Source of the DNA: Trichocoleus sp. FACHB-40 | Lineage (GTDB): Bacteria > Cyanobacteriota > Cyanobacteriia > Cyanobacteriales > FACHB-T130 | Length of the DNA stretch: 64,000 bases | Direction: 5' to 3' | NCBI RefSeq assembly: GCF_014695915.1 | Contig: NZ_JACJPF010000066.1 | Location: 1 to 64,000 of the forward strand | In this document: positions 47,603 to 60,841 of the stretch, in pieces | How the letters are laid out: the number at the start of each line of letters is the position of its first letter | Position numbering within the stretch: position 1 is the first letter of the stretch | Notes under the pieces: model-generated | Seen by the model: the letters and a program-made list of their open reading frames with translations, nothing else | Told to the model about the DNA's origin: nothing | The model's database searches: none | Position numbers and translations under genes: made by a program

Positions 47603-50600
47603 TCAGTGGCAAGTTTTTAGAATAGCGCGATCGCGTCCAGCTGCTTTTGCCTCATAAAGCGCTAGATCGGCAGTATGAATCAGTTCAACGGGGGAATCAG
47701 GAAGAGGAACCACAACGGCGACCCCTAAACTCAAAGTAATGTATGGGCTTATTGGGGATTTGGCATGAGAAATCTGCAATTCTCGGATGCGATCGCGTAT
47801 GTCCTGTGCTACTTTCAGCGCTCCTTGGGTCTTAGTGTAAGGCAAAATCACCACAAATTCTTCGCCTCCATATCGAGCCACTAAATCCGCAGGACGCTTC
47901 AGTATCTGACTAATAGCAGCGGCGACCAATTGTAAACAACTATCTCCCGCTTGATGACCATAATTATCATTATAAAGTTTAAAAAAGTCGATATCGCACA
48001 TAATCAAAGCTAGCGGTGCTTTTTCCCGTGCCAACCGCCGCCACTCTCGCTCAAGATATTCGTCAAAGCGACGACGATTTGCCACCTGAGTTAAGCCATC
48101 TAAGCAAGCTAAACGCTGTAACTCATAGTTTGCTTCTTCTAGCTGTTGATATAGTTGTGCTTGCTGGATAGCGATCGCTATCTGAGTCGTCAGCTGTTGT
48201 AGCAAATTAACTTCAAACGGTTGCCAAATCCGTACTGAACTACATTGATGAGCAATCACCAATCCCCAAAGAGAAACGCTATTAACTTGTGGTTTTTCAG
48301 TAACCAAAGCCGATATATTGGCATCTTTACTAGGGATTTGTGACTGGTGATTGGGTATAGAAAATTGTTGAACCCCGAAATTTCGCCTCTCTATCCTAGT
48401 CCCTACTTCACAGGTTCTAATTCCTTCATTAGAACTTGAGCCAACCGATTCCAGAACCAGCGGCGATATTAGTTCAGCTTTTACCTCCAAGCGTTGCAAA
48501 AATGCCACCAAACAAGGTTCTACCTCATTCTCCAGGTTGTCGATTACGCGAACCTGTCCGTTTTTATAACGTTCGTAGCAGCTTTGTGGAAAAACGTCCT
48601 CATCAAAAGTTTGTCCTAGAAGACTAGGCAACTCAGGAACCACTGCTTCTGCGATCGCATTCCCCCTGTTTCCACAGCAAATGCGGTAAATGAAAACGCG
48701 ATCGCATTCCAGTAATTGCCGCACCTCTGTGACTGCGGTGTTAAGAATCTCCTCCAAATTCAGCGATTGGCGAATTCTTTGGGTAATAGCTGCTACCAGT
48801 CGTTCTCGCTGTGTCTGCTGGCGCAGTGCTGCCTCTGCTCGCACGCGATCTGTGATATCCAGAGCTAGGGAGGCAAAGCCCATCACTTCTCCATTGGGAG
48901 CCACTAAAGACGTGTTGTACCAATCACAAATAATAGCTCTACCATCTTTGGTTATATTCTCGTTTGTGCTGCGATTACCACCCTTACCTGTTAGCAACTT
49001 ATAACAAATTTTATTGACGTGTTCTCTAGCATTTTCAGGCACAATCATTTCACCTGTACTACCGATAATTTCACTTTTTTTATAACCAAAAATTGCTTCC
49101 GCAGACGGGTTCCATTCTACAATTTCATAATTAATATTCCATTCAATTACAGCTAACGGAGTTTGCTGTACGTGGAGAGAAAGTTTCTGTTCTGATTTCT
49201 TTAGTGCTTCTTCCGCAGCAATGCGATCGCTTATATCGCGAGTAACACATAATAGGGATTCTACACAACCATCTGCCGAAAATTCTGGTACTATTCTAGA
49301 TTGATAATGTGCTAAGCCATCGGGTGTTAAAAATTCAAACTCTATCTTACCTTCGCAGCCTGTTTCCCAGACTTCCGACATCGCTTTTTCCCAGAAAGAT
49401 ACTATTTCATCAGGCATACCCAACTCTCGATTAGTTTTCCCAATGAATGCCTGGGGAGAAAGTCCAGAAGCCTTCCTAGCTGCTGGGTTTACGTAGAGAT
49501 GACGCAGTTGTTTATCAAACCGGGTAATAATATCAGGCGCGTTTTCAGCTAACGCTCTAAATTCTTGTTCGCGTCGGTGTAACGCTTCTTCTACTTGCTT
49601 GCGTTCGGTGATATCGCGGATAATAGCTAAAACTTCCTCTTCCCGTCCTTGAGAACAGGTGACAATTCTAGCTTCACATTCGCGCACGCTATCATTAATA
49701 ATAATCTGACATTCCCAAGTTTGAATTTCCCCAGACGAGAGCGATCGCTCTATATAAGTCATCCCTTCTTGTGCTACCTCTGGGGGCAAAAAATCCCACA
49801 GGGTTTTACCAACCAATGCCTCTGGAACGATTAACATAGAAATGTCTTTCGCTGCTTTGCATTCCAAAATTTTGCCTTTCTTACTAACGCGCATCATTAA
49901 ATCTGGTAGAGCATCGAGAAGGGCGCGATTTTTAGCTTCGCTTGCTCTCAAAAATTCTTCTACCTGCTTACGTTCCGTGATGTCAAAACACGAGCCAATA
50001 TAACCCTCGAAGCCTCCATTCCTAAAGCGAGGAACACCTTTATCCACAACCCAGCGATAATTTCCATCTGCACGTTTTAGGCGATATTCTATCAGAAAGC
50101 ACTGACGTGCCGCAAAAGCTGACAGGTACGTATCCAGACGTAATTCTCTATCTTCCGGATGTAAGTTTTGAACCCAGCCATTGCCTAGTTCCTCTTCTAG
50201 GGTGCGTCCGGTAAAGTCCAGCCAACCTTGATTGAAAAAGTTACACAGTCCATTGGTGTCAGATGTCCAAAGTAACAAAGGCGCACTATTAAGAAGCGAT
50301 CGCAAGCCCTCTTCACTTTCCCGCAAAGCCTGCTCCATAGCTTTGCGCTCAGTGATGTCAGTATAGGCGATAGCAACTCCATAATTTTTTAGAATAATAG
50401 GACTAGCCGTAACATTGAGCCAGGTGATTTCTTTATCATTTCTTACAACCCCCATTTCTATATTTTCAACAGTTCGATTTTCAGTTAATGCTTTCACACT
50501 AGCGAATTCGTTTGTTGGCATTGGTGTACCATCAGGACGAACAATCTTCCATTCCTGGCAGTCATAAGTTCGATTTGTCTGTTCTACCGAAGATATACAT

Positions 50601-52006
50601 AAAATCTTTTCAGATGCTTTATTGGCTTCAATAATATTTCCGGCTTTATCTGTAATGGAAATTCCCAGAGGAAATGTCTCAAACAGAACCTTGTATTTTT
50701 CTTCGCTTTCTCTTAAGGCTTCTTCAGTTTGCTTGCGCTCGGTAATATCTCGTCCTACTGACTGGAACTCTACCAATCCCTGCTGGTCAAATATGGCGCG
50801 ATCGCTCCACTGCTGAATACGAATTTCTCCATTAGAAAGGATGACTTTGTGTTCAATCATCGCCACCGGGTTTTCTCGACTCAAAGCGGCGAAATGCTTT
50901 GCTACCCTTTCTCTGTCTTCTTCTAAAATGTATTGCAGAAAGTCATCGCCAATCATTTCCTGGCGCTGCTTGCCAAAATAGCGACAGCAAGCCTCATTGA
51001 CCAAGGTAAACTTTCCGTCAGGTGAAAGCCTGACGATTAGTTCAGTTTGCTCCTCAACAATTTTGCGATAGCGTACTTCGCTCTCCCGTAGTGCTAACTC
51101 ACTTCGCTGGCGATCGCATTCTTGGATTGCCAAAACCACCATTTGCGCGATCGCGCAAGCAAAATTCTGCTCATCTAACGCCCACTCCCGAACCGTCCCC
51201 GTCTGTTCATGGCAGATTACCCCAAATCCAGAAATTGGCGCATCCAACATGGAGGTAATGCCTAGCTCCAGATAAGATCCCAACTCAGATGTACGCCGAT
51301 CGTTACGAGCATCGCTAGCTGCAATGACGCGCTTTTGTTTGATCGCAGCGAAGTAATTAGGATAGTCCGCCGCCGCCAATTTCATCCCGTTTGAATGGCA
51401 GTTATTCCCCAATTCATACAAGTCAGCGCAGCAAATCTGGGAACAGTCTTGATTGTAAAACCACACGCTCACCCGCTCTACACCGAGAGTCCGCGCTGCC
51501 ACCTCTGTAATTTCCCGCAACGCCGCTTGTAGTTCCCCATATTTCCGACTTGCCAGTTCCAAAAGCGCTGTCTGTTGGCGTAGGAGCCGATGTTCGCGCT
51601 CTTGAGAAGCTTGTTCTGCAAGCTTGGCGCGAGTAATGTCGCTTCCATTCACCAATAGCTTTTGGCGGCTGCCATCTGGGTTGAAAAGCGGGGTTTTTTT
51701 GATATCAAATACCTTTATCTCCCCATCGCCATCTTGAATCACTTGTTCGCTATGGCTGACAGTTCCTTCACGCCAAACTTTCTCATCGCAGGCAGCACAA
51801 GCTAAAATAGCGGCCCGACTTTTGTCATCAGTGTGTGCAGCTAGTTCTAAGCTTGTCTTACCTTGATAATCTACTCCTGATAACCGAAATAGCTCTATTG
51901 TGTAGTTATTTGCCATCAACCAGCGTCCCTGGTTATCTTTAACGACAATAAAGCCGGAAGCAGCGTTAATTAAGTTATAAAGCAAGATGTCTTGAGTTGG
52001 CTGCAT
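47603..52006 (-). CDS. Multi-PAS/GAF diguanylate cyclase of 1467 residues
   Basis: The protein has a first PAS (LINAASGFIVVKDNQGRWLM), a GAF domain (about 150-300), six further PAS domains, many followed by DITERKQ linkers (for example LIVRLSPDGKFTLVNEACCR, LGISITDKAGNIIEANKASE, APLLLWTSDTNGLCNFFNQG, APDIITRFDKQLRHLYVNPA), and a second, phytochrome-type GAF (LEEILNTAVTEVRQLLECDR ... WGLVIAHQCSSVRIW). A GGDEF cyclase ends it: YGGEEFVVILPY carries the catalytic Glu, and a DGLTQVANRRRFDEYL entry precedes it. It should make cyclic di-GMP in response to several signals. No EAL domain is present. A loop in the second GAF carries a repeat-derived insert (see findings). It heads a minus-strand set of four signalling genes but is separated by over 400 bases from the next. 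Confidence 0.92.
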   Translation of the reverse strand: MQPTQDILLYNLINAASGFIVVKDNQGRWLMANNYTIELFRLSGVDYQGKTSLELAAHTDDKSRAAILACAACDEKVWREGTVSHSEQVIQDGDGEIKVFDIKKTPLFNPDGSRQKLLVNGSDITRAKLAEQASQEREHRLLRQQTALLELASRKYGELQAALREITEVAARTLGVERVSVWFYNQDCSQICCADLYELGNNCHSNGMKLAAADYPNYFAAIKQKRVIAASDARNDRRTSELGSYLELGITSMLDAPISGFGVICHEQTGTVREWALDEQNFACAIAQMVVLAIQECDRQRSELALRESEVRYRKIVEEQTELIVRLSPDGKFTLVNEACCRYFGKQRQEMIGDDFLQYILEEDRERVAKHFAALSRENPVAMIEHKVILSNGEIRIQQWSDRAIFDQQGLVEFQSVGRDITERKQTEEALRESEEKYKVLFETFPLGISITDKAGNIIEANKASEKILCISSVEQTNRTYDCQEWKIVRPDGTPMPTNEFASVKALTENRTVENIEMGVVRNDKEITWLNVTASPIILKNYGVAIAYTDITERKAMEQALRESEEGLRSLLNSAPLLLWTSDTNGLCNFFNQGWLDFTGRTLEEELGNGWVQNLHPEDRELRLDTYLSAFAARQCFLIEYRLKRADGNYRWVVDKGVPRFRNGGFEGYIGSCFDITERKQVEEFLRASEAKNRALLDALPDLMMRVSKKGKILECKAAKDISMLIVPEALVGKTLWDFLPPEVAQEGMTYIERSLSSGEIQTWECQIIINDSVRECEARIVTCSQGREEEVLAIIRDITERKQVEEALHRREQEFRALAENAPDIITRFDKQLRHLYVNPAARKASGLSPQAFIGKTNRELGMPDEIVSFWEKAMSEVWETGCEGKIEFEFLTPDGLAHYQSRIVPEFSADGCVESLLCVTRDISDRIAAEEALKKSEQKLSLHVQQTPLAVIEWNINYEIVEWNPSAEAIFGYKKSEIIGSTGEMIVPENAREHVNKICYKLLTGKGGNRSTNENITKDGRAIICDWYNTSLVAPNGEVMGFASLALDITDRVRAEAALRQQTQRERLVAAITQRIRQSLNLEEILNTAVTEVRQLLECDRVFIYRICCGNRGNAIAEAVVPELPSLLGQTFDEDVFPQSCYERYKNGQVRVIDNLENEVEPCLVAFLQRLEVKAELISPLVLESVGSSSNEGIRTCEVGTRIERRNFGVQQFSIPNHQSQIPSKDANISALVTEKPQVNSVSLWGLVIAHQCSSVRIWQPFEVNLLQQLTTQIAIAIQQAQLYQQLEEANYELQRLACLDGLTQVANRRRFDEYLEREWRRLAREKAPLALIMCDIDFFKLYNDNYGHQAGDSCLQLVAAAISQILKRPADLVARYGGEEFVVILPYTKTQGALKVAQDIRDRIRELQISHAKSPISPYITLSLGVAVVVPLPDSPVELIHTADLALYEAKAAGRDRAILKTCH

Positions 52007-52441: not shown

Positions 52442-53908
52442 TTACACTAAGGGCAGCAGAATCTCAAATTCAGTACCGCTGCTTACAGGAGATTCTATGC
52501 TTTCATTTGCGGATGCTTGTGATTCCGCTTCGTATAGGCGATCGCTAACGATAGGGGATTCTTCTTGGGAGACGCTACGCGATCGCATTTTAAATTCTCC
52601 CCCGTGCTTTGCTGTCACGATTTCATAACTTAGCGATAAACTGGTTTCTTTAGTAGCACGTTTTTGCACAGAAAAAGATTCAAAAATTTGCTGCTGTAAT
52701 TCCGGAGACATTCCCGGCCCATTATCAGCAATCAGAATAGAAACCCAGCGAAGATCGCAAATTCCCGGATTAGGATTAGTAAAAGTCCGAGAAAACACCT
52801 TTGTAGTGATTTCAATGCGAGACTTTTGTATAGCGTCTGCTGGCATTCCCCCTTTAAACTCTTGGGAATACTTCTCTCGCACTGCCTGCTCAATCAACGC
52901 ATCAATGGCATTTGTGAGAATATTCATAAAAACCTGGTTCAGTTGCCCAATGTAACATTGGACTGGAGGTAAATGTCCATAATTTCTGATAATCTCAATC
53001 TCGCTGGTCAGACGACTTTTTAACAACAAAAGAATACTATCTAAATTAGCGTGTAAATCAGCAGGCTTAGGATAAACATCATCAATATGGCAAAAGTTTT
53101 GCAACCCAGATACCAATTTTTTTAAGCGTTCTGCTCCTGAGCGGATGCTGCCAATTGCTCTGGGAAAATCTTGTTGGATAAAATCTAACTCAATATCTTC
53201 TTTTAGGTCAGCAATTTCTTCAGGCGGAACAGTAAGATACGCTGCATAAGCAGACAGCAATTCTAGTAAATTATCGCTGTAGGTTGAGACATAAGTTAAG
53301 TTTCCCCAAATAAAGCTTACTGGATCTAAAATTTCGTGTAATAATCCATCCACCAAACGCCCCAAACTAGCCATTTTTTCACTTTGGATCATCTGCGCTT
53401 GGATGCGTTCGTATCGTACTTGAGTTTCTATTCCTCGAATTTGCCAGGAAACAAGGTTCAATTCCTGAACATCTAACAAACGATAGTCAGATGCTCCCAC
53501 TTGTACCACGATTGGTTCTGCTCGCAGTTCAGGCGATCGCTTTAGTGCCTGCTGCGTTGCTGTCAGAATTGGCGTACTATCGGGAAGCACTAAAACCTCA
53601 GAGCGATCGTACCTGTAGATAACGTGCAGGGGTTTGTGCAAAAATAACTCTAGCCGATGAGGACGAAGCAGGCACTCCAAGAGCCGTCGCCGCGAAATCA
53701 TACCTGCAAACTTACCTTGTTCTATCAGGATTGCTCCAGGTAGCAGGGGCTGCTTCTCGAAAGTGCGGGCGACATCTACACCCTGGCAGCTGGTTTTAAC
53801 TTGAAAATTGTACAGGGGTAACTCTCTCAGGGCTGACTGTGTAGAGAGATCGCGATCGCTCCCCTGAGACAAGGATGGAGGTGAGATAAATCCATTTGAT
53901 ACCAACAC
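52442..53908 (-). CDS. Histidine kinase with CBS-pair-like sensor and degenerate G2 box
   Basis: The 488-residue protein starts at GTG. Residues about 24-165 form the shared sensor module (LPLYNFQVKTSCQGVDVART, LLPGAILIEQGKFAGMISRR, ITP-like DSTPILTATQQALKRSPELR, DYRLLDVQELNL). Next come the HisKA region with His191 (GRLVDGLLHEILDPVSFI), the N box (GQLNQVFMNILTNAIDALIE) and G1 (IADNGPGMSPELQQQ). The G2 box, GKGTGLGLAI in the adjacent kinase, is ATKETSLSLSYEIV: its glycines are lost. ATP lid function is doubtful, so it may be a weak or inactive kinase acting as a phosphatase or partner. The tail before SGTEFEILLPLV is an irregular repeat-derived linker. Confidence 0.85.
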   Translation of the reverse strand: MLVSNGFISPPSLSQGSDRDLSTQSALRELPLYNFQVKTSCQGVDVARTFEKQPLLPGAILIEQGKFAGMISRRRLLECLLRPHRLELFLHKPLHVIYRYDRSEVLVLPDSTPILTATQQALKRSPELRAEPIVVQVGASDYRLLDVQELNLVSWQIRGIETQVRYERIQAQMIQSEKMASLGRLVDGLLHEILDPVSFIWGNLTYVSTYSDNLLELLSAYAAYLTVPPEEIADLKEDIELDFIQQDFPRAIGSIRSGAERLKKLVSGLQNFCHIDDVYPKPADLHANLDSILLLLKSRLTSEIEIIRNYGHLPPVQCYIGQLNQVFMNILTNAIDALIEQAVREKYSQEFKGGMPADAIQKSRIEITTKVFSRTFTNPNPGICDLRWVSILIADNGPGMSPELQQQIFESFSVQKRATKETSLSLSYEIVTAKHGGEFKMRSRSVSQEESPIVSDRLYEAESQASANESIESPVSSGTEFEILLPLV

Positions 53909-54120
53909 ACAACGCCCAAAATGCAGTAGAGAAGCTGGATTCAGCTATTAACATACATTATCATCTCCAGCAGCCTTTCACCTGTACTTTGGGCTGATTC
54001 CAACTACTTTCGGGAAATATTTTCTCTACAATTATTTTTTGGTACGTTAGTTCTAACCTGCGGCGTTGCATGAGGTCAGGCTTATATGCCTGCGTTACAT
54101 ATAGTTGGCGCTACTGCCGA

Positions 54121-55617
54121 TTAAACAAGCGGCAGCAGGATCTCAAATTCCGTGCCGAAGCTTGGTTGTGAATCTTCCATGCCGATTGCGCTGTTTAAAT
54201 GCTCTAAGGTCGCTATCTTTGCAGCCACTTTGCTAACGCCCTCCCCTACACTATGGGAGGAGACGCTATTAGCAGCGTACAACCGAGACGGGGAGGGGCT
54301 ATTAGCCGCATTCCAGCGAGGCGATCTCACAAATAATTTACCTCCATGCTTTTGCGTAACAATTTGATTACTTATAGCCAACCCCAGCCCTGTCCCCTTA
54401 CCTACTGGCTTTGTGGTAAAAAACGTCTCGAAAATCCGCTTTTGAATCTCCGGCTCAATTCCAGGCCCATTATCCGAAATCTTAATTACTACCCATTCAG
54501 AATCTTTGGTTTCTAAAACTTCAGTTGTAATTTGGATCTGGGGTTGCCAATCTTTTGCTGGGAGGAAATTGGGATGAGCGTTTTCCTTACTTTTTGCTTC
54601 CCCTAAAGCATCAATTGCATTACTGATAATATTCATAAACACCTGGCTCAGTTGTCCTGAGTAACAACTTACAAGCGGCAAATCCCCATAATTTTTAATT
54701 ACTTCAATACCATTTTTTAGGGGATTATTTAAAATTAGTAGGGTACTTTCAATACATTCGTGCAAATCAACGGTTTGACGCTTATTTTCATCCAAGTGAG
54801 AAAAGTTTTGTAGGCCGCTAACGATTTTCGTCAATCGCTCCGCGCTCACTTTCATACTTTCTATTAACTTTGGCAAATCTTCCAAAAGAAAATCTAGTTC
54901 AATTTCTTCTTTGAGGTCAACAATTTTAGCTGATATATTTGGTTCTGCTTCATAAGCTGCCACTAACTGCATCAAGTCTTGACAGTAAGTTGACATGAAT
55001 GCGGAATTACCATTAATGCAGTTAACCGGATTTTTAATTTCATGGGCAATTTCAGCAACCATCCGCCCCAAAGTCGCCATTTTTTCTGCTTGCAACATTT
55101 GGGCTTTGGTTTGCTCATCTAAAAGCTGAGTTGTCAGTTCGTGAATCTGAGACTGAGCTACCAGTAATTGATGCACGTCTACTAACCGATACACTCCATT
55201 CGCCAACTCTACTACAATCGGTTCATTTAGTAACTCAGGTGGACGCTGCAAAGACAATTTTGCTGCCGTCACAATTAACGTATCACCTGGTAATTTTAAA
55301 AAATTTGTTGCGGCAAATTCATATAGAGATTTTAGAGAGCGTTTTAAAAATAGTTCCAACCCATAAGGGCGACTCATTTGTTCTAAAAACCGTCCCCGCG
55401 AAATCATCCCCACAAATTTATTTTCTGTGGTCAAAATGACTCCCGGCAACAGCTTGTTAACTTCAAACCTCTGAGCAACTTCTTTGCCCTGGCATGAGGC
55501 TTCTATTTGAAAATCGTATAGTGACAGCTCTTGAAGAGTTGACTCCAAACTCAGCTTTTTGGTAGCGAATTCCGGTAATATTGATAATTCGGCCTTGGAC
55601 TTTTGCAAACTAACCAT
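54121..55617 (-). CDS. Histidine kinase with CBS-pair-like sensor, intact catalytic domain
   Basis: The 498-residue protein has the same sensor module at about 25-165 (LSLYDFQIEASCQGKEVAQR, LLPGVILTTENKFVGMISRG, GDTLIVTAAKLSLQRPPELL, GVYRLVDVHQLLVAQSQIHE), a HisKA region with His192 (GRMVAEIAHEIKNPVNCI), and a full ATPase domain (GQLSQVFMNIISNAIDALGE, ISDNGPGIEPEIQKR, GKGTGLGLAISNQIVTQKHG). The conserved end SFGTEFEILLPLV is pushed away from the catalytic part by an insertion of about 45 residues encoded by palindromic repeat DNA (54228-54310). Soluble; no membrane helix. No response regulator is adjacent, so its partner is unknown. It starts with ATG at 55617. Confidence 0.9.
   Translation of the reverse strand: MVSLQKSKAELSILPEFATKKLSLESTLQELSLYDFQIEASCQGKEVAQRFEVNKLLPGVILTTENKFVGMISRGRFLEQMSRPYGLELFLKRSLKSLYEFAATNFLKLPGDTLIVTAAKLSLQRPPELLNEPIVVELANGVYRLVDVHQLLVAQSQIHELTTQLLDEQTKAQMLQAEKMATLGRMVAEIAHEIKNPVNCINGNSAFMSTYCQDLMQLVAAYEAEPNISAKIVDLKEEIELDFLLEDLPKLIESMKVSAERLTKIVSGLQNFSHLDENKRQTVDLHECIESTLLILNNPLKNGIEVIKNYGDLPLVSCYSGQLSQVFMNIISNAIDALGEAKSKENAHPNFLPAKDWQPQIQITTEVLETKDSEWVVIKISDNGPGIEPEIQKRIFETFFTTKPVGKGTGLGLAISNQIVTQKHGGKLFVRSPRWNAANSPSPSRLYAANSVSSHSVGEGVSKVAAKIATLEHLNSAIGMEDSQPSFGTEFEILLPLV
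54228..54310. repeat. Palindromic repeat DNA inside the kinase gene
   Basis: The sequence GTTAACGCC/CCCTCCCCTACACTATGG, GGAGGAGACG, and GACGGGGAGGGGCTATTAG contains CCCTCCCC paired with GGGGAGGGG and AGACG-type inner pairs. The same class of G/C-rich palindromes occurs in spacers. It is read in frame as the linker NSPSPSRLYAANSVSSHSVGEG. Confidence 0.6.
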
Positions 55618-55910
55618 AATATCCCTGAGTTAGTTATTTCAACTTTTTTAATAATATCGTATTTTTACTGTAGCACTCAATTTTACTAATTTATATAATA
55701 AAGATTTTTCCTACAATATTTATTTACTTTTAATCTAATCTAAAGTTTATTTTAATCAAATCTTAACTTATAAATCAATTAGATAATTTAATTTTCGTAG
55801 ACTAAAATATAATTTTTTTTGAAGGAAGTTAAAGTTTAACTATATATTTATTAAAGAAAATATTTTTTCATTTAATAAGTTGCCAATGGCTTAAATAACG
55901 CCTGGAAATA

Positions 55911-57008
55911 CTAAAAGCTGCATACGCTAACGCGATCGCGTCCAGTCTGCTTTGCTTTGTACAGCATCTCGTCAGCTGCCGTAACCAGCATTGATGGTGA
56001 GAAAGCTGGACTGGGAAAACCGATGGCAACACCTAAACTGACGGTGACGTACTCGCTAACCTCTGAACAAGCATGGGGAATTTTCAAAGCTTTGACTGCC
56101 TGTTGAATAGATTCTGCAACATGAACCGCACCAGCAAGCGGCGTGTGCGGCACAATTATGGCAAATTCTTCCCCGCCATAACGTGCTACCAAATCTTCAG
56201 GATGCTTCACCGTTTGCTCAATGGCAGCAGCTACCTGCCGTAAACAGTCATCACCTGCTTGATGACCGTAGGTATCGTTATACTTTTTGAAAAAGTCAAC
56301 ATCGCACAGAATCAGGCATAGCCCAGAACTATTTTCCTGCATCTGTTGCCAGCAAGAAAGGAAATACTCATCAAAACGGCGACGGTTGGCAACCCCAGTT
56401 AAGCTATCAGAACTTGCCAGGTGTAGTAACTGTTGGTTTGTAATTGCCAGCTGGTTGTAGAGTTGAGTCACCAGCTGGGTTGCCAATTCATGAATTTGCG
56501 CCTGAGCTAGGAGTAATTGATGTACATCCAATAAACGGTAAACTTGCGGTGCCACCTCTACCACAATCGGTTCATCAAGTAACTCAGGGCGTCGATCTAA
56601 AGACCGACGGGCCGCCGTCACGATCGGTGTTTCCCCTGGAAAAGTTAACATCTCCGTTTGAGCAGCTCGGTATAAACACTCAATTGGTCGCTGAGAAAAC
56701 AATTCTAACCCGTAGGGACGACTCATGAATTCTAAAAATCGCCGCCGGGAAATCATCCCAGCCAAACGACCTTGCTGGTTTAAGATGATGCCTGGAAGGA
56801 GAGGATTAGCTTTGAAAGCCCCAGCCACCTCCCTGCCGATTTTATCGGTTTCAACCTGACCATCGTGCAGTGATAGTTCCTGAAGCGTGGATTGTAAGGA
56901 TAAATAGCGATCGCTTACCTGGAGTGACAAGGGCGGTGCTCCAAGGGCATTCATGTCAGGTTGCGCTACATAACTGATATCCAGTCTTAAAGCTTGAGCC
57001 TGATTCAT
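55911..57008 (-). CDS. Diguanylate cyclase with CBS-pair-like sensor
   Basis: The 365-residue protein joins the shared sensor module at about 30-175 (LSLHDGQVETDKIGREVAGA, LLPGIILNQQGRLAGMISRR, GETPIVTAARRSLDRRPELL, VYRLLDVHQLLLAQAQIHEL) to a GGDEF domain (SSDSLTGVANRRRFDEYFLS, LCDVDFFKKYNDTYGHQAGD). The active site is GGEEF (VARYGGEEFAIIVPHTPL). It should make cyclic di-GMP; RxxD-type inhibition site residues were not clearly seen. The sensor is 50-70 percent identical by eye to those of the two kinases at 52442 and 54121. No membrane segment. The ATG at 57008 has only a weak ribosome site. Confidence 0.92.
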   Translation of the reverse strand: MNQAQALRLDISYVAQPDMNALGAPPLSLQVSDRYLSLQSTLQELSLHDGQVETDKIGREVAGAFKANPLLPGIILNQQGRLAGMISRRRFLEFMSRPYGLELFSQRPIECLYRAAQTEMLTFPGETPIVTAARRSLDRRPELLDEPIVVEVAPQVYRLLDVHQLLLAQAQIHELATQLVTQLYNQLAITNQQLLHLASSDSLTGVANRRRFDEYFLSCWQQMQENSSGLCLILCDVDFFKKYNDTYGHQAGDDCLRQVAAAIEQTVKHPEDLVARYGGEEFAIIVPHTPLAGAVHVAESIQQAVKALKIPHACSEVSEYVTVSLGVAIGFPSPAFSPSMLVTAADEMLYKAKQTGRDRVSVCSF

Positions 57009-57300: not shown

Positions 57301-58311
57301 ATGAATCAACTGCACAACGCTTTCACCTTGTTTTTAAGTTTGCTAGTAGAGGCAATGCCTTTCTTGCTAGTGGGGGTTTTGCTCTCCGGTATACTGCTGT
57401 TGTTTATCGATGAGCGGAAGCTGATTGGTGCCATGCCGAAGAACCCAATTTTAGGGGCTTTTGTGGGCAGCTGTGTAGGCTTCTTGTTTCCAGTGTGCGA
57501 GTGCGGTAATGTGCCAGTAGCGCGGCGGTTGCTGATTCAAGGGGTGCCATCACCAGTAGCGATTGGGTTTTTGCTGGCAGCGCCAACAATCAATCCGATT
57601 GTGATCTGGTCTACCTGGGTGGCATTTCGAGATCAGCCGGAAATTGTCGTGTTGCGGGTAGTATTTTCGTTAGCGATCGCAACCATCATTGCTTCCGTAT
57701 TCAGCGTTCAGGGTAATTTGAAACCAATCCTGCAACCAGCGATCGCTTGCGCCATACCCCGTCCCCAATCAAAATCAAGACTGGAAGATAAAACTCCCAC
57801 CTTGCTACAATCGGGAACGTTTTGGCTGGGACAGTCTGGGCCGACGCCAATGGATGCCGTGGCTCTTGGCAACACAATGGCGGGTAATATAAGCTCAAAA
57901 CCGCTACCCTACAAGCTGCGGATGTTGCTAGATAATACAGTGCAGGAGCTGCGGGAACTGGGGGGCGTGTTAATTTTGGGAAGTGCGATCGCCGCGGCTA
58001 TTCAAGTACTCGCACCCCGCGAACTTATCCTAAGTCTTGGTCAAGGGCCAATTACCTCCATCGTCGCCATGATGGTATTGGCTGCACTGGTGTCGATTTG
58101 TTCAACCGTAGATTCCTTTTTTGCCCTCTCCTTTGCCTCAGCTTTTACCAGTGGATCTTTACTAGCTTTTCTGGTATTTGGCCCGATGATTGACCTCAAA
58201 GGCATCGGATTGATGTTATCAATTCTTAAACCCAGAGCAGTATTCTATCTCTTTGGACTCGCCGCCCAACTGACCTTCATCTTTACCTTGTTTTATACCT
58301 ACTTTTTCTGA
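57301..58311 (+). CDS. Permease of the DUF318/YraQ family
   Basis: The 336-residue protein has about eight hydrophobic helices, with the signature FPVCECGNVPVARRLLIQGV near residues 62-80 (Cys-Glu-Cys motif), PSPVAIGFLLAAPTINPIVI and ALVSICSTVDSFFALSFASA in the second half. The two half-repeats are separated by a charged loop with the repeat-like PRPQSKSRLEDKTP. Members are predicted efflux or uptake permeases for metals or other small solutes. It is followed by a TIGR03943 protein, and such pairs occur in many bacteria, where they are thought to work together in metal handling. Confidence 0.83.
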   Translation: MNQLHNAFTLFLSLLVEAMPFLLVGVLLSGILLLFIDERKLIGAMPKNPILGAFVGSCVGFLFPVCECGNVPVARRLLIQGVPSPVAIGFLLAAPTINPIVIWSTWVAFRDQPEIVVLRVVFSLAIATIIASVFSVQGNLKPILQPAIACAIPRPQSKSRLEDKTPTLLQSGTFWLGQSGPTPMDAVALGNTMAGNISSKPLPYKLRMLLDNTVQELRELGGVLILGSAIAAAIQVLAPRELILSLGQGPITSIVAMMVLAALVSICSTVDSFFALSFASAFTSGSLLAFLVFGPMIDLKGIGLMLSILKPRAVFYLFGLAAQLTFIFTLFYTYFF

Positions 58312-58405: not shown

Positions 58406-59188
58406 ATGACCAATCAACCAAAGCTTATTTCCCAAAAATTTATCATCCCTAGCTTGGATGTCTTGGCATTCTTAGCGTGGGGAATATTGCTGCTAAAATA
58501 CCGGATCACAGGGCAATTATACTTACTGATTCACGAAGATTATTTCTGGCTGGTGATTGTAACTGGTATATCTTTGTTAATCTTGGCGGTATTGAAAGCT
58601 GTACAACTGCTCCAAGACCTGTTTAATGGTAGGGAGCGAAATCGAACTGTAGCGGTTCTTCAGCATATCACCTTGTTTCCCCCAGGATGGAGTAGCATAT
58701 TGCTGCTGGCGACAGCGATATTGGGTTTACTAATTGCCCCCCGCGTGTTTACCTCTGCAACAGCACTAGAACGGGGTGTTACTGAATCTATTAGCTTTAC
58801 CAGATCGAATCCCCAAGCATTTCGTTCGTCAGTACGACCGGAACAGCGATCGCTAATTGACTGGGTGCGGACGCTAAACTTCAACCCCGAACCCGACGCC
58901 TACACAGGTCAGAAAGCCAAAGTTCAAGGATTCGTGGTTCATCCACCAGAACTACCGCCAGAATACCTGCTAATATCCCGATTTATAATTACCTGCTGTG
59001 CAGCAGATGCTTATCCAGTAGGGTTGCCCGTAAAACTAATTGAAAATCGCAATGCCTATATTCCCGACACTTGGTTAGAAATCGAAGGTGAGATGATTAC
59101 CGAAACATTCCAAGGTAAACGTCAACTCACCATCAAAGCAAATTCACTTAAAAAAATAGACCCGCCAAAGAATCCCTATGATTATTAA
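58406..59188 (+). CDS. TIGR03943-family membrane protein (YcgQ-like)
   Basis: The 260-residue protein has helices at about 15-35, 45-67 and 92-110, then a soluble C-terminal domain of about 140 residues. Family features are FNPEPDAYTGQKAKVQGFVV, LISRFIITCCAADAYPVGLP with the Cys pair and DTWLEIEGEMITETFQGKRQ. It lies 94 bases after the DUF318 permease on the same strand. The same gene pair is known as YcgR-YcgQ in Bacillus. The Cys residues in the soluble part could bind a metal. The role remains inferred. Confidence 0.83.
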   Translation: MTNQPKLISQKFIIPSLDVLAFLAWGILLLKYRITGQLYLLIHEDYFWLVIVTGISLLILAVLKAVQLLQDLFNGRERNRTVAVLQHITLFPPGWSSILLLATAILGLLIAPRVFTSATALERGVTESISFTRSNPQAFRSSVRPEQRSLIDWVRTLNFNPEPDAYTGQKAKVQGFVVHPPELPPEYLLISRFIITCCAADAYPVGLPVKLIENRNAYIPDTWLEIEGEMITETFQGKRQLTIKANSLKKIDPPKNPYDY

Positions 59189-59311: not shown

Positions 59312-60841
59312 ATGACTTCCAAACAATTTCTTCAACCAATTGATCGCCTTGCCTTAGCGCTAATGCTATTGCTGAGTCTGGTGATAGGGCTAATGTTGTG
59401 GGGTGGCAATGCCTGCGCCAGTGGCACCAATTGCCTTTTAGTCACCGGGCCTCGCGTGCGAGATTTCAGCTGGCAGAGAAAACAAGTAGGTGCTAATGAT
59501 CCTTCCTTTATCCTCACCTTTAGCCGCCCAATGGATCGTGGCAGTGTGGAAGCAAATCTGCGTATTGAGCCACCTTTGCCGGGTAAATTCAGCTGGGCAG
59601 GGCGGAAAATGTCTTATACCTTAACTTCCCCAGCGCCTTATGACACAGCTTATAAAGTAAGCTTAGAAGGGGCAAACGAGCGCATAGGAACGAGTCGTGT
59701 AGGAAAGGAAATGCAGCCGTTTACGGGACAGTTTCGCACCCGCGATCGCGCTATGGTTTATCTGGGAGTTGAGAAGGAAGAACAAGGGCAATTAATCCTC
59801 TACAACTTTACTCAAAATAAAAAAACAGTTCTGACGCCTAAAGACCTGGTAGTAATGGACTTTAAGTCTTACCCAGATGGCGAAAAAATATTGTTTTCTG
59901 CCACCGATTCGAGGAATAATAAACCAGGCTTGTCGGAACAACAAATTTACACCGTAACCACGGGAATAAGTTCCGATTCCGGAAAATCTAACGAAGAATC
60001 ACCGCCAGCAGGCAGACTGAACGTGGTTCTAAATAACACAGATTACCAAAATCTCAAATTTGACTTGTCGGCGGATGGGGAAACAATTGTTGTGCAGCGC
60101 GTGAACAGCAAAAATCCCGCAGAATTTGGACTGTGGGTAGTGCGAGAAGATGCTCCGCCACAACCGTTGAAAAACCAACCGGGAGGAGAATTTTTGATAG
60201 CGCCGGATAGTGAGACAGTAGCGATCGCTCAAGGAGAAGGTATCGCCATTCTGCCACTCACCCCAGCCGCAAAGCCGTTGGATTTTCTGCCGAAATTTGG
60301 TTTAGTGCTAGGGTTCGCCAGAGATGGATCGGCAGGCACTTTCGTTAAATTCAACACAGATTACACGCGATCGCTTTTTCTGGTCACTAACTCTGGCGTA
60401 CAGAAAGAACTCCTGCGGACAAACGGCTCAATTCTGGGTTGCGAATTTGCTCCCCAAAAGGAGATACTCTACTGTCTGCTAACACAGCTACTCACTGGAA
60501 CAGATTACCAAGAACAGCCTTACATTGCCGCAATTGACATCAAAAATTCCACAAGTCCTCTGGATGCAAATGCCGTGAAGCCGCTGTTGCTATTGCCCAC
60601 CCAGCGCGACATTCACATGAGTTTGTCACCAGATGGGTTAGCGCTGCTATTCGATCAAGTTGTCACCTCCCCCGGAATACCCCCCACAGCGGATGGTTTG
60701 AGAACAGATGAAGGGCAAGCGATCGCTACCAGTAACCTCTGGCTGCTTCCCCTAACCTCCTCAAAACCAGGAGAACCCCGCACCCAGATGCAACCCGAAC
60801 AGCTACCTTTACCAGGCTTACAGCCCCGATGGTTGCCATAA
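59312..60841 (+). CDS. Exported protein with Ig-like domain and WD40-like beta-propeller
   Basis: The 509-residue protein has one N-terminal membrane helix (LALALMLLLSLVIGLMLWGG), then a Big_5-type Ig-like domain at about 60-155 (FSRPMDRGSVEANLRIEPPL, SYTLTSPAPYDTAYKVSL). A TolB-like propeller of several blades follows (DFKSYPDGEKILFSATDS, FDLSADGETIVVQRVNSK, SPDGLALLFDQV). It is probably anchored with the body in the periplasm. The function is unknown; propellers usually bind other proteins or ligands. It is 123 bases after the TIGR03943 gene on the same strand, so it may belong to the same transcript. Confidence 0.75.
   Translation: MTSKQFLQPIDRLALALMLLLSLVIGLMLWGGNACASGTNCLLVTGPRVRDFSWQRKQVGANDPSFILTFSRPMDRGSVEANLRIEPPLPGKFSWAGRKMSYTLTSPAPYDTAYKVSLEGANERIGTSRVGKEMQPFTGQFRTRDRAMVYLGVEKEEQGQLILYNFTQNKKTVLTPKDLVVMDFKSYPDGEKILFSATDSRNNKPGLSEQQIYTVTTGISSDSGKSNEESPPAGRLNVVLNNTDYQNLKFDLSADGETIVVQRVNSKNPAEFGLWVVREDAPPQPLKNQPGGEFLIAPDSETVAIAQGEGIAILPLTPAAKPLDFLPKFGLVLGFARDGSAGTFVKFNTDYTRSLFLVTNSGVQKELLRTNGSILGCEFAPQKEILYCLLTQLLTGTDYQEQPYIAAIDIKNSTSPLDANAVKPLLLLPTQRDIHMSLSPDGLALLFDQVVTSPGIPPTADGLRTDEGQAIATSNLWLLPLTSSKPGEPRTQMQPEQLPLPGLQPRWLP

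Follow-up and report, generated by a model that had tools for sequence, protein, structure and literature searches.

The locus considered here raises the question of why three neighbouring signalling genes of the cyanobacterium Trichocoleus sp. FACHB-40, which lie within the 64,000-nucleotide stretch of DNA that was analysed (the window), should open with one and the same sensory module and end in different outputs, and whether the two of them that resemble histidine kinases are both able to act as such. An earlier note had read them as two histidine kinases and a diguanylate cyclase, all of them answering a single input. The open reading frames lie where that note placed them, the modules align end to end and carry the sequence motifs it described, and the reading of one of the proteins as a histidine kinase stands; the other (52442-53908) lacks the ATP-lid motif that kinases need, and this conserved pseudo-kinase, which had been taken for a second kinase, is the main new result.

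All three genes lie on the minus strand; the cyclase comes first in transcription (from 57008 downwards), then the canonical kinase, and last the pseudo-kinase. The first (55911-57008) encodes a cyclase of 365 aa with its module at 56475-56903 (profile match E 4.9e-74) and a GGDEF domain (PF00990, E 3.1e-51). The second (54121-55617, 498 aa) joins a module at 55126-55554 (E 1.6e-73) to HisKA (1.8e-7) and HATPase_c (1.3e-21) domains, and its H, N, G1, F and G2 boxes are all present, the H-box as HEIKNP (55027-55044) and the G2 box of the ATP lid as GKGTGLGL (54379-54402). The third, with a GTG start and 488 aa, carries its module at 53420-53848 (E 2.5e-70), followed by a histidine kinase-like region that HisKA does not match and HATPase_c matches more weakly (3.1e-12). 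Its H-box reads HEILDP (53322-53338), with the His and Glu kept and the Asn at H+4 changed to Asp, and KETSL (52637-52651) stands in place of the G2 box, two residues having been deleted and the glycines lost. No response regulator was found adjoining the array genes, no direct repeats of 16 bases or more occur within the three genes, and an Rfam search of part of the window and six loci returned no RNA. Both histidine kinase-like proteins of the window also contain, ahead of the final beta strand, a long additional segment (52460-52600 and 54150-54330), absent from most relatives, which may have come from inserted repeat DNA.

As to the common input, the N-terminal modules of the trio are about 143 residues long and 48-52% identical, and there are five copies in the genome: when the first module is used as query, the other two of the array match it at E 1e-34 to 1e-35, well outside what chance would give, and two further copies elsewhere do so at E 5e-29 and 2e-23, one of which precedes a kinase and the other a PAS-kinase. 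The module copy at L005:1414-3075 is joined to PAS and a different type of kinase, so that output diversity in this genome exceeds the array. The earlier note had seen two CBS-like halves, and an AlphaFold model of the cyclase module, built from 42 aligned modules (mean pLDDT 91.8), does show a CBS pair (Bateman module) followed by a long signalling helix. The PDB matches of this model are themselves CBS pairs, with Foldseek E values from 3.6e-5 and VIA-align Z up to 12.7 among the matches listed, and they include the cyanobacterial CBS-CP12, AcuB, AMPK gamma and DarB. At the level of sequence the signal is fainter, as the Pfam CBS family (PF00571) falls below its cut-off in the window copies, 37 of the 42 related modules match it weakly (best E 5.5e-6), and PDB sequence searches give CBS matches, all weak. 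Because the model is confident and its structural matches are CBS proteins, the fold is taken as settled so far as prediction allows. The module resembles the known CBS pair in fold, size and pairwise repeat, and differs from it in lying under the Pfam cut-off and in having the usual Asp of the adenosyl motif replaced; it is a described domain by its fold, and one without a known fixed role in this subfamily.

What such a sensor could bind is a narrower question. In adenosyl-binding CBS pairs an Asp contacts the ribose, and in the module this position is Arg or Gln in CBS1 and Glu or Gln in CBS2, so that the adenosyl motif is only partly kept. The statement that none of the usual ligand-contact motifs is obvious thus describes this position well, and goes too far for CBS1, which keeps the G-h-h-S motif: G55, S58 and R59 are invariant in all 42 modules of the alignment, and so are E64, R110, P118 and Y128. 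In DarB, residues T130-R131-R132 contact c-di-AMP (PMC9848473, PMC7900238). The module shares with the c-di-AMP receptors DarB/CbpB the CBS pair, and its S58-R59-R60, with the invariant R59, resembles this contact, although the DarB motif lies in CBS2 and that of the module in CBS1, and DarB stands alone; the likeness is a lead to a candidate ligand only.

The GGEEF active-site motif of the cyclase (56163-56177) is unbroken, and every one of 13 family cyclases keeps it (13/13). The inhibitory site that precedes it, RxxD in about half of these 13, reads HPED in the window protein, and because of this its product inhibition may be missing. Directly downstream of the array, on the same strand, lies a second cyclase, a 1467-aa PAS/GAF/GGDEF protein (47603-52006) in which KRPAD, an RxxD, precedes the GGEEF.

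The features that set the third protein apart are not peculiar to Trichocoleus. All 91 pseudo-kinase relatives in the family alignment have H-E-x-x-D-P, with Asp and not Asn at H+4, while the 38 canonical sister kinases have, without exception, H-E-x-x-N and the G2 glycines (GxGxGxG). The same 91 pseudo-kinases have all lost two residues of the G2 box, together with the glycines at its third and fourth positions; at the first position, which lies outside the core GxGLG, 25 of them have Gly. What has replaced the box is itself conserved, as K-x-T-S-L (K 90/91, T 91/91, S 90/91). The His, the Glu at H+1, the Asp of G1 and the first Asn of the N-box are kept throughout (91/91), and the second Asn of the N-box is replaced in 67 and kept in 24. 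The KETSL lid was found as well in pseudo-kinases of eight further or deeper groups (families f4, f7, f11, f16, f18, f19, f20 and f23), lids of the GKGTGLGL type persist in those module kinases of other families that do not show the HE..D signature, and across these further families no intermediates between the two lids were seen. The loss of the lid is therefore old and has been kept since, and apparently it arose once. The whole pseudo-kinase (AlphaFold pLDDT 82.6) is predicted to retain the layout of a histidine kinase, with the fold of the CA domain and a lid of low confidence, and the PDB matches of the model are histidine kinases; its full-length identity to the canonical module kinase is about 50%. 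The median pairwise dN/dS of the pseudo-kinases (0.18 for the CA domain, 0.17 for the lid) is comparably low to that of the canonical kinases (0.28 and 0.12), and the protein is under purifying selection.

With regard to distribution, 90 of the 386 genomes sampled from the phylum carry the module, and every one of the 80 named loci retained from the genome collection is cyanobacterial. In the loci examined, the only outputs seen were cyclase, kinase, PAS-kinase and pseudo-kinase. The cyclase-kinase-kinase arrangement is met again in Argonema, Microseira, Oscillatoria and others (L036, L039, L041, L050, L054, L065, L080), and L015, another genome, matches this three-gene layout; in Microcoleus-type loci the pattern is kinase-kinase, and in Nostocales loci the pseudo-kinase usually stands alone. 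The DNA pattern for HEILDP stands directly behind the module in at least 42 of the 386 genomes, from 11 families, a minimum count, since this pattern does not pick up HEVLDP variants. In eight genomes the pseudo-kinase is the sole module protein (at E 1e-5), from which it follows that a module kinase is not needed as its fixed partner. The richest sets seen, of up to six module proteins each, belong to genomes of one family (f7: G039, G099, G195, G203, G354). A literature search limited to non-subscription journals found no paper on these cyanobacterial proteins.

The earlier note had proposed local duplication with swapping of outputs. A recent local duplication is ruled out by the same gene order in other genera, and the three-gene set is for that reason old and not a recent local event; swapping, on the other hand, is hinted at. 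In the tree of the modules, where the rows L073_HK, L086_HK and L029_other are pseudo-kinases, the pseudo-kinase modules form one clade (100/100), that of the window included, and the modules of cyclases and kinases intermingle. A tree constrained to keep the cyclases in one group is worse by 36 log-likelihood units, at an AU p of 0.057, and their monophyly is not formally rejected. Within the L036 genome the cyclase module is 78% identical to the kinase module, compared with 64-69% between the cyclase modules of different genomes, when the near-identical sister L039 (94%) is set aside, and the pseudo-kinase modules stand at about 50% from both alike. The mixed tree and these identities are suggestive of gene conversion or output swapping that would have been confined to the cyclase and kinase genes.

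On the other side of the array the neighbourhood is also shared. On the plus strand, and divergent from the cyclase, lie an ArsP_1-family permease (57301-58311; PF03773, E 1.5e-78), a putative permease subunit of TIGR03943 / DUF1980 (58406-59188; E 2e-69) and a conserved 509-aa protein without a Pfam or NCBIfam match (59312-60841). The ArsP_1 permease is near a module gene in 46 of 112 loci and divergent in all 46, the nearest module gene being the pseudo-kinase in 42, the kinase in two and the cyclase in two; its absence beside module genes in the other 66 is due in part to some loci being short. In the genome sample, 29 genomes, drawn from seven families, have TIGR03943 less than 4 kb from a module gene, and in all 29 it is divergent. 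For a related pair known from Streptococcus and Bacillus, links to stress, biofilm and envelope functions have been published, its role in transport being putative (PMC5584981). The ArsP_1/TIGR03943 operon is probably controlled by the signal of the array, or serves it. Control of the operon by zinc through Zur was considered and rejected, as no Zur-like box was found in 31 intergenic regions and the papers offered no such link. The family-less 509-aa protein is a neighbour of the permease pair in as many as 38 loci, forming a neighbour cluster in 38 of the 80; in 33 loci the pseudo-kinase is followed downstream, on the opposite strand, by another protein without a Pfam or NCBIfam match (L092:5851-7428 and relatives). 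Between permease and pseudo-kinase, upstream of the permease, Nostocales loci (e.g., L045, L049, L057) share some 60 conserved bp, CAAAAGCGGTTT...CTAGTCATTCTATCGAAATGGGGATCAAAAGCA, for which there is no Rfam match.

If these elements are brought together, the cytoplasmic CBS-pair sensor would bind a ligand, and the resulting change would pass through the signalling helix to three outputs, namely a c-di-GMP-producing cyclase, a canonical histidine kinase and a pseudo-histidine kinase. The joining of one CBS-pair input to phosphorelay-type and c-di-GMP outputs, as the earlier note had it, is borne out by the Pfam domains and the modelled module, but two kinases giving phosphate responses together are not to be expected, because 52442-53908 is without the ATP-lid motif and only 54121-55617 looks able to autophosphorylate. 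Lacking the G2 box, the pseudo-kinase would be unable to do so, and with the phospho-accepting His and its neighbouring Glu kept, it most likely acts on a regulator phosphorylated by another kinase, as a non-catalytic histidine protein that would accept its phosphate or dock it. In such a role it probably regulates or relays a phosphate signal rather than making it, although the retained His could be structural, and a weak or unusual ATP site may persist, the Asp of G1 and the first Asn of the N-box being kept in all and the second Asn in 24 of 91. The functional steps are our reading of motifs, conservation, purifying selection and a predicted sensor fold, and we hold the chances to be about even that this is an old trio with a common CBS-pair sensor whose kinase-dead third protein is a ligand-gated phosphate acceptor, relay or docking switch.

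Known proteins offer work-alikes by analogy for such a function. DivL of Caulobacter is a pseudo-kinase that docks or reads a phosphorylated regulator (PMC4211667). The likeness lies in a histidine kinase fold without kinase activity (shown for DivL, predicted here) with a sensor in front, and the difference in that DivL carries PAS sensors and a Tyr where the His would be, while the present protein keeps the His (91/91) and loses the ATP lid. ChpT and Spo0B are histidine kinase-like phosphotransferases, in which a DHp domain with an active His is accompanied by a CA domain without kinase function; the same combination is predicted here, behind a CBS sensor that those two do not have. RetS of Pseudomonas, finally, is a histidine kinase-like protein that acts on another kinase, GacS, and its kinase region is among the structural matches of the pseudo-kinase, although its sensor is different and its architecture hybrid.

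The example of RetS leads to an alternative which is unlikely and yet deserves to be kept in sight, that the pseudo-kinase is mainly a hetero-oligomer partner which, through DHp and CBS, restrains the canonical kinase or alters its balance of kinase and phosphatase. Their common array, common module and full-length identity would suit it, as would the presence of RetS in the Foldseek list, where it is one of many histidine kinase structures; however, the eight genomes that carry the pseudo-kinase without any other module protein argue against it, and an invariant His and Glu would be unnecessary for pairing alone. It is quite improbable that the protein has remained an active kinase with its ATP lid in an unusual form, for although the Asp of G1, the first Asn of the N-box and the His-Glu of the H-box are kept and the CA fold is predicted, the core glycines of G2 are gone and two of its residues deleted in every member, and the second Asn of the N-box is replaced in most of them. 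Changes in G2 abolish autokinase activity in the HisKA kinases that have been studied.

The opposite explanation, that the third gene is the decaying pseudogene of a duplicated kinase, could appeal to the loss of active-site motifs, but with an open frame in all copies, dN/dS near 0.18, a replacement motif that is itself conserved and a spread over 11 families it has practically no probability left, and conservation and purifying selection rule it out. There is likewise little likelihood that the three CBS-linked paralogues stand together by chance and without a joint function: it is true that the set is often broken up and that many genomes keep one or two members only, but order and strand agree between distinct genera, and the divergent permease recurs as a neighbour in seven families. 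A bolder form of the preferred reading, that of the ligand-gated phosphate acceptor, relay or docking switch, would have one messenger, possibly a nucleotide rich in phosphate, for example c-di-AMP, set cyclase, kinase, kinase-dead histidine relay and permease operon together, and this we regard as doubtful.

To our knowledge, the known pseudo-histidine kinases are few, and genetics brought most of them to light singly. The protein described here is defined by a clean signature, HE[IV]LDP and KETSL, and is widespread in cyanobacteria, including Nostoc; its close canonical paralogue with the same sensor makes for an easy assay, and allows the role of a kinase-dead histidine protein to be asked directly. 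The shared CBS sensor, for its part, provides a defined example in which a single input feeds both c-di-GMP and phosphorelay outputs. If the bolder reading is true, c-di-GMP output, phosphate input and phosphate routing would all be set by one ligand in these cyanobacteria, and the pseudo-kinase would found a class in which the His is kept and the lid lost.
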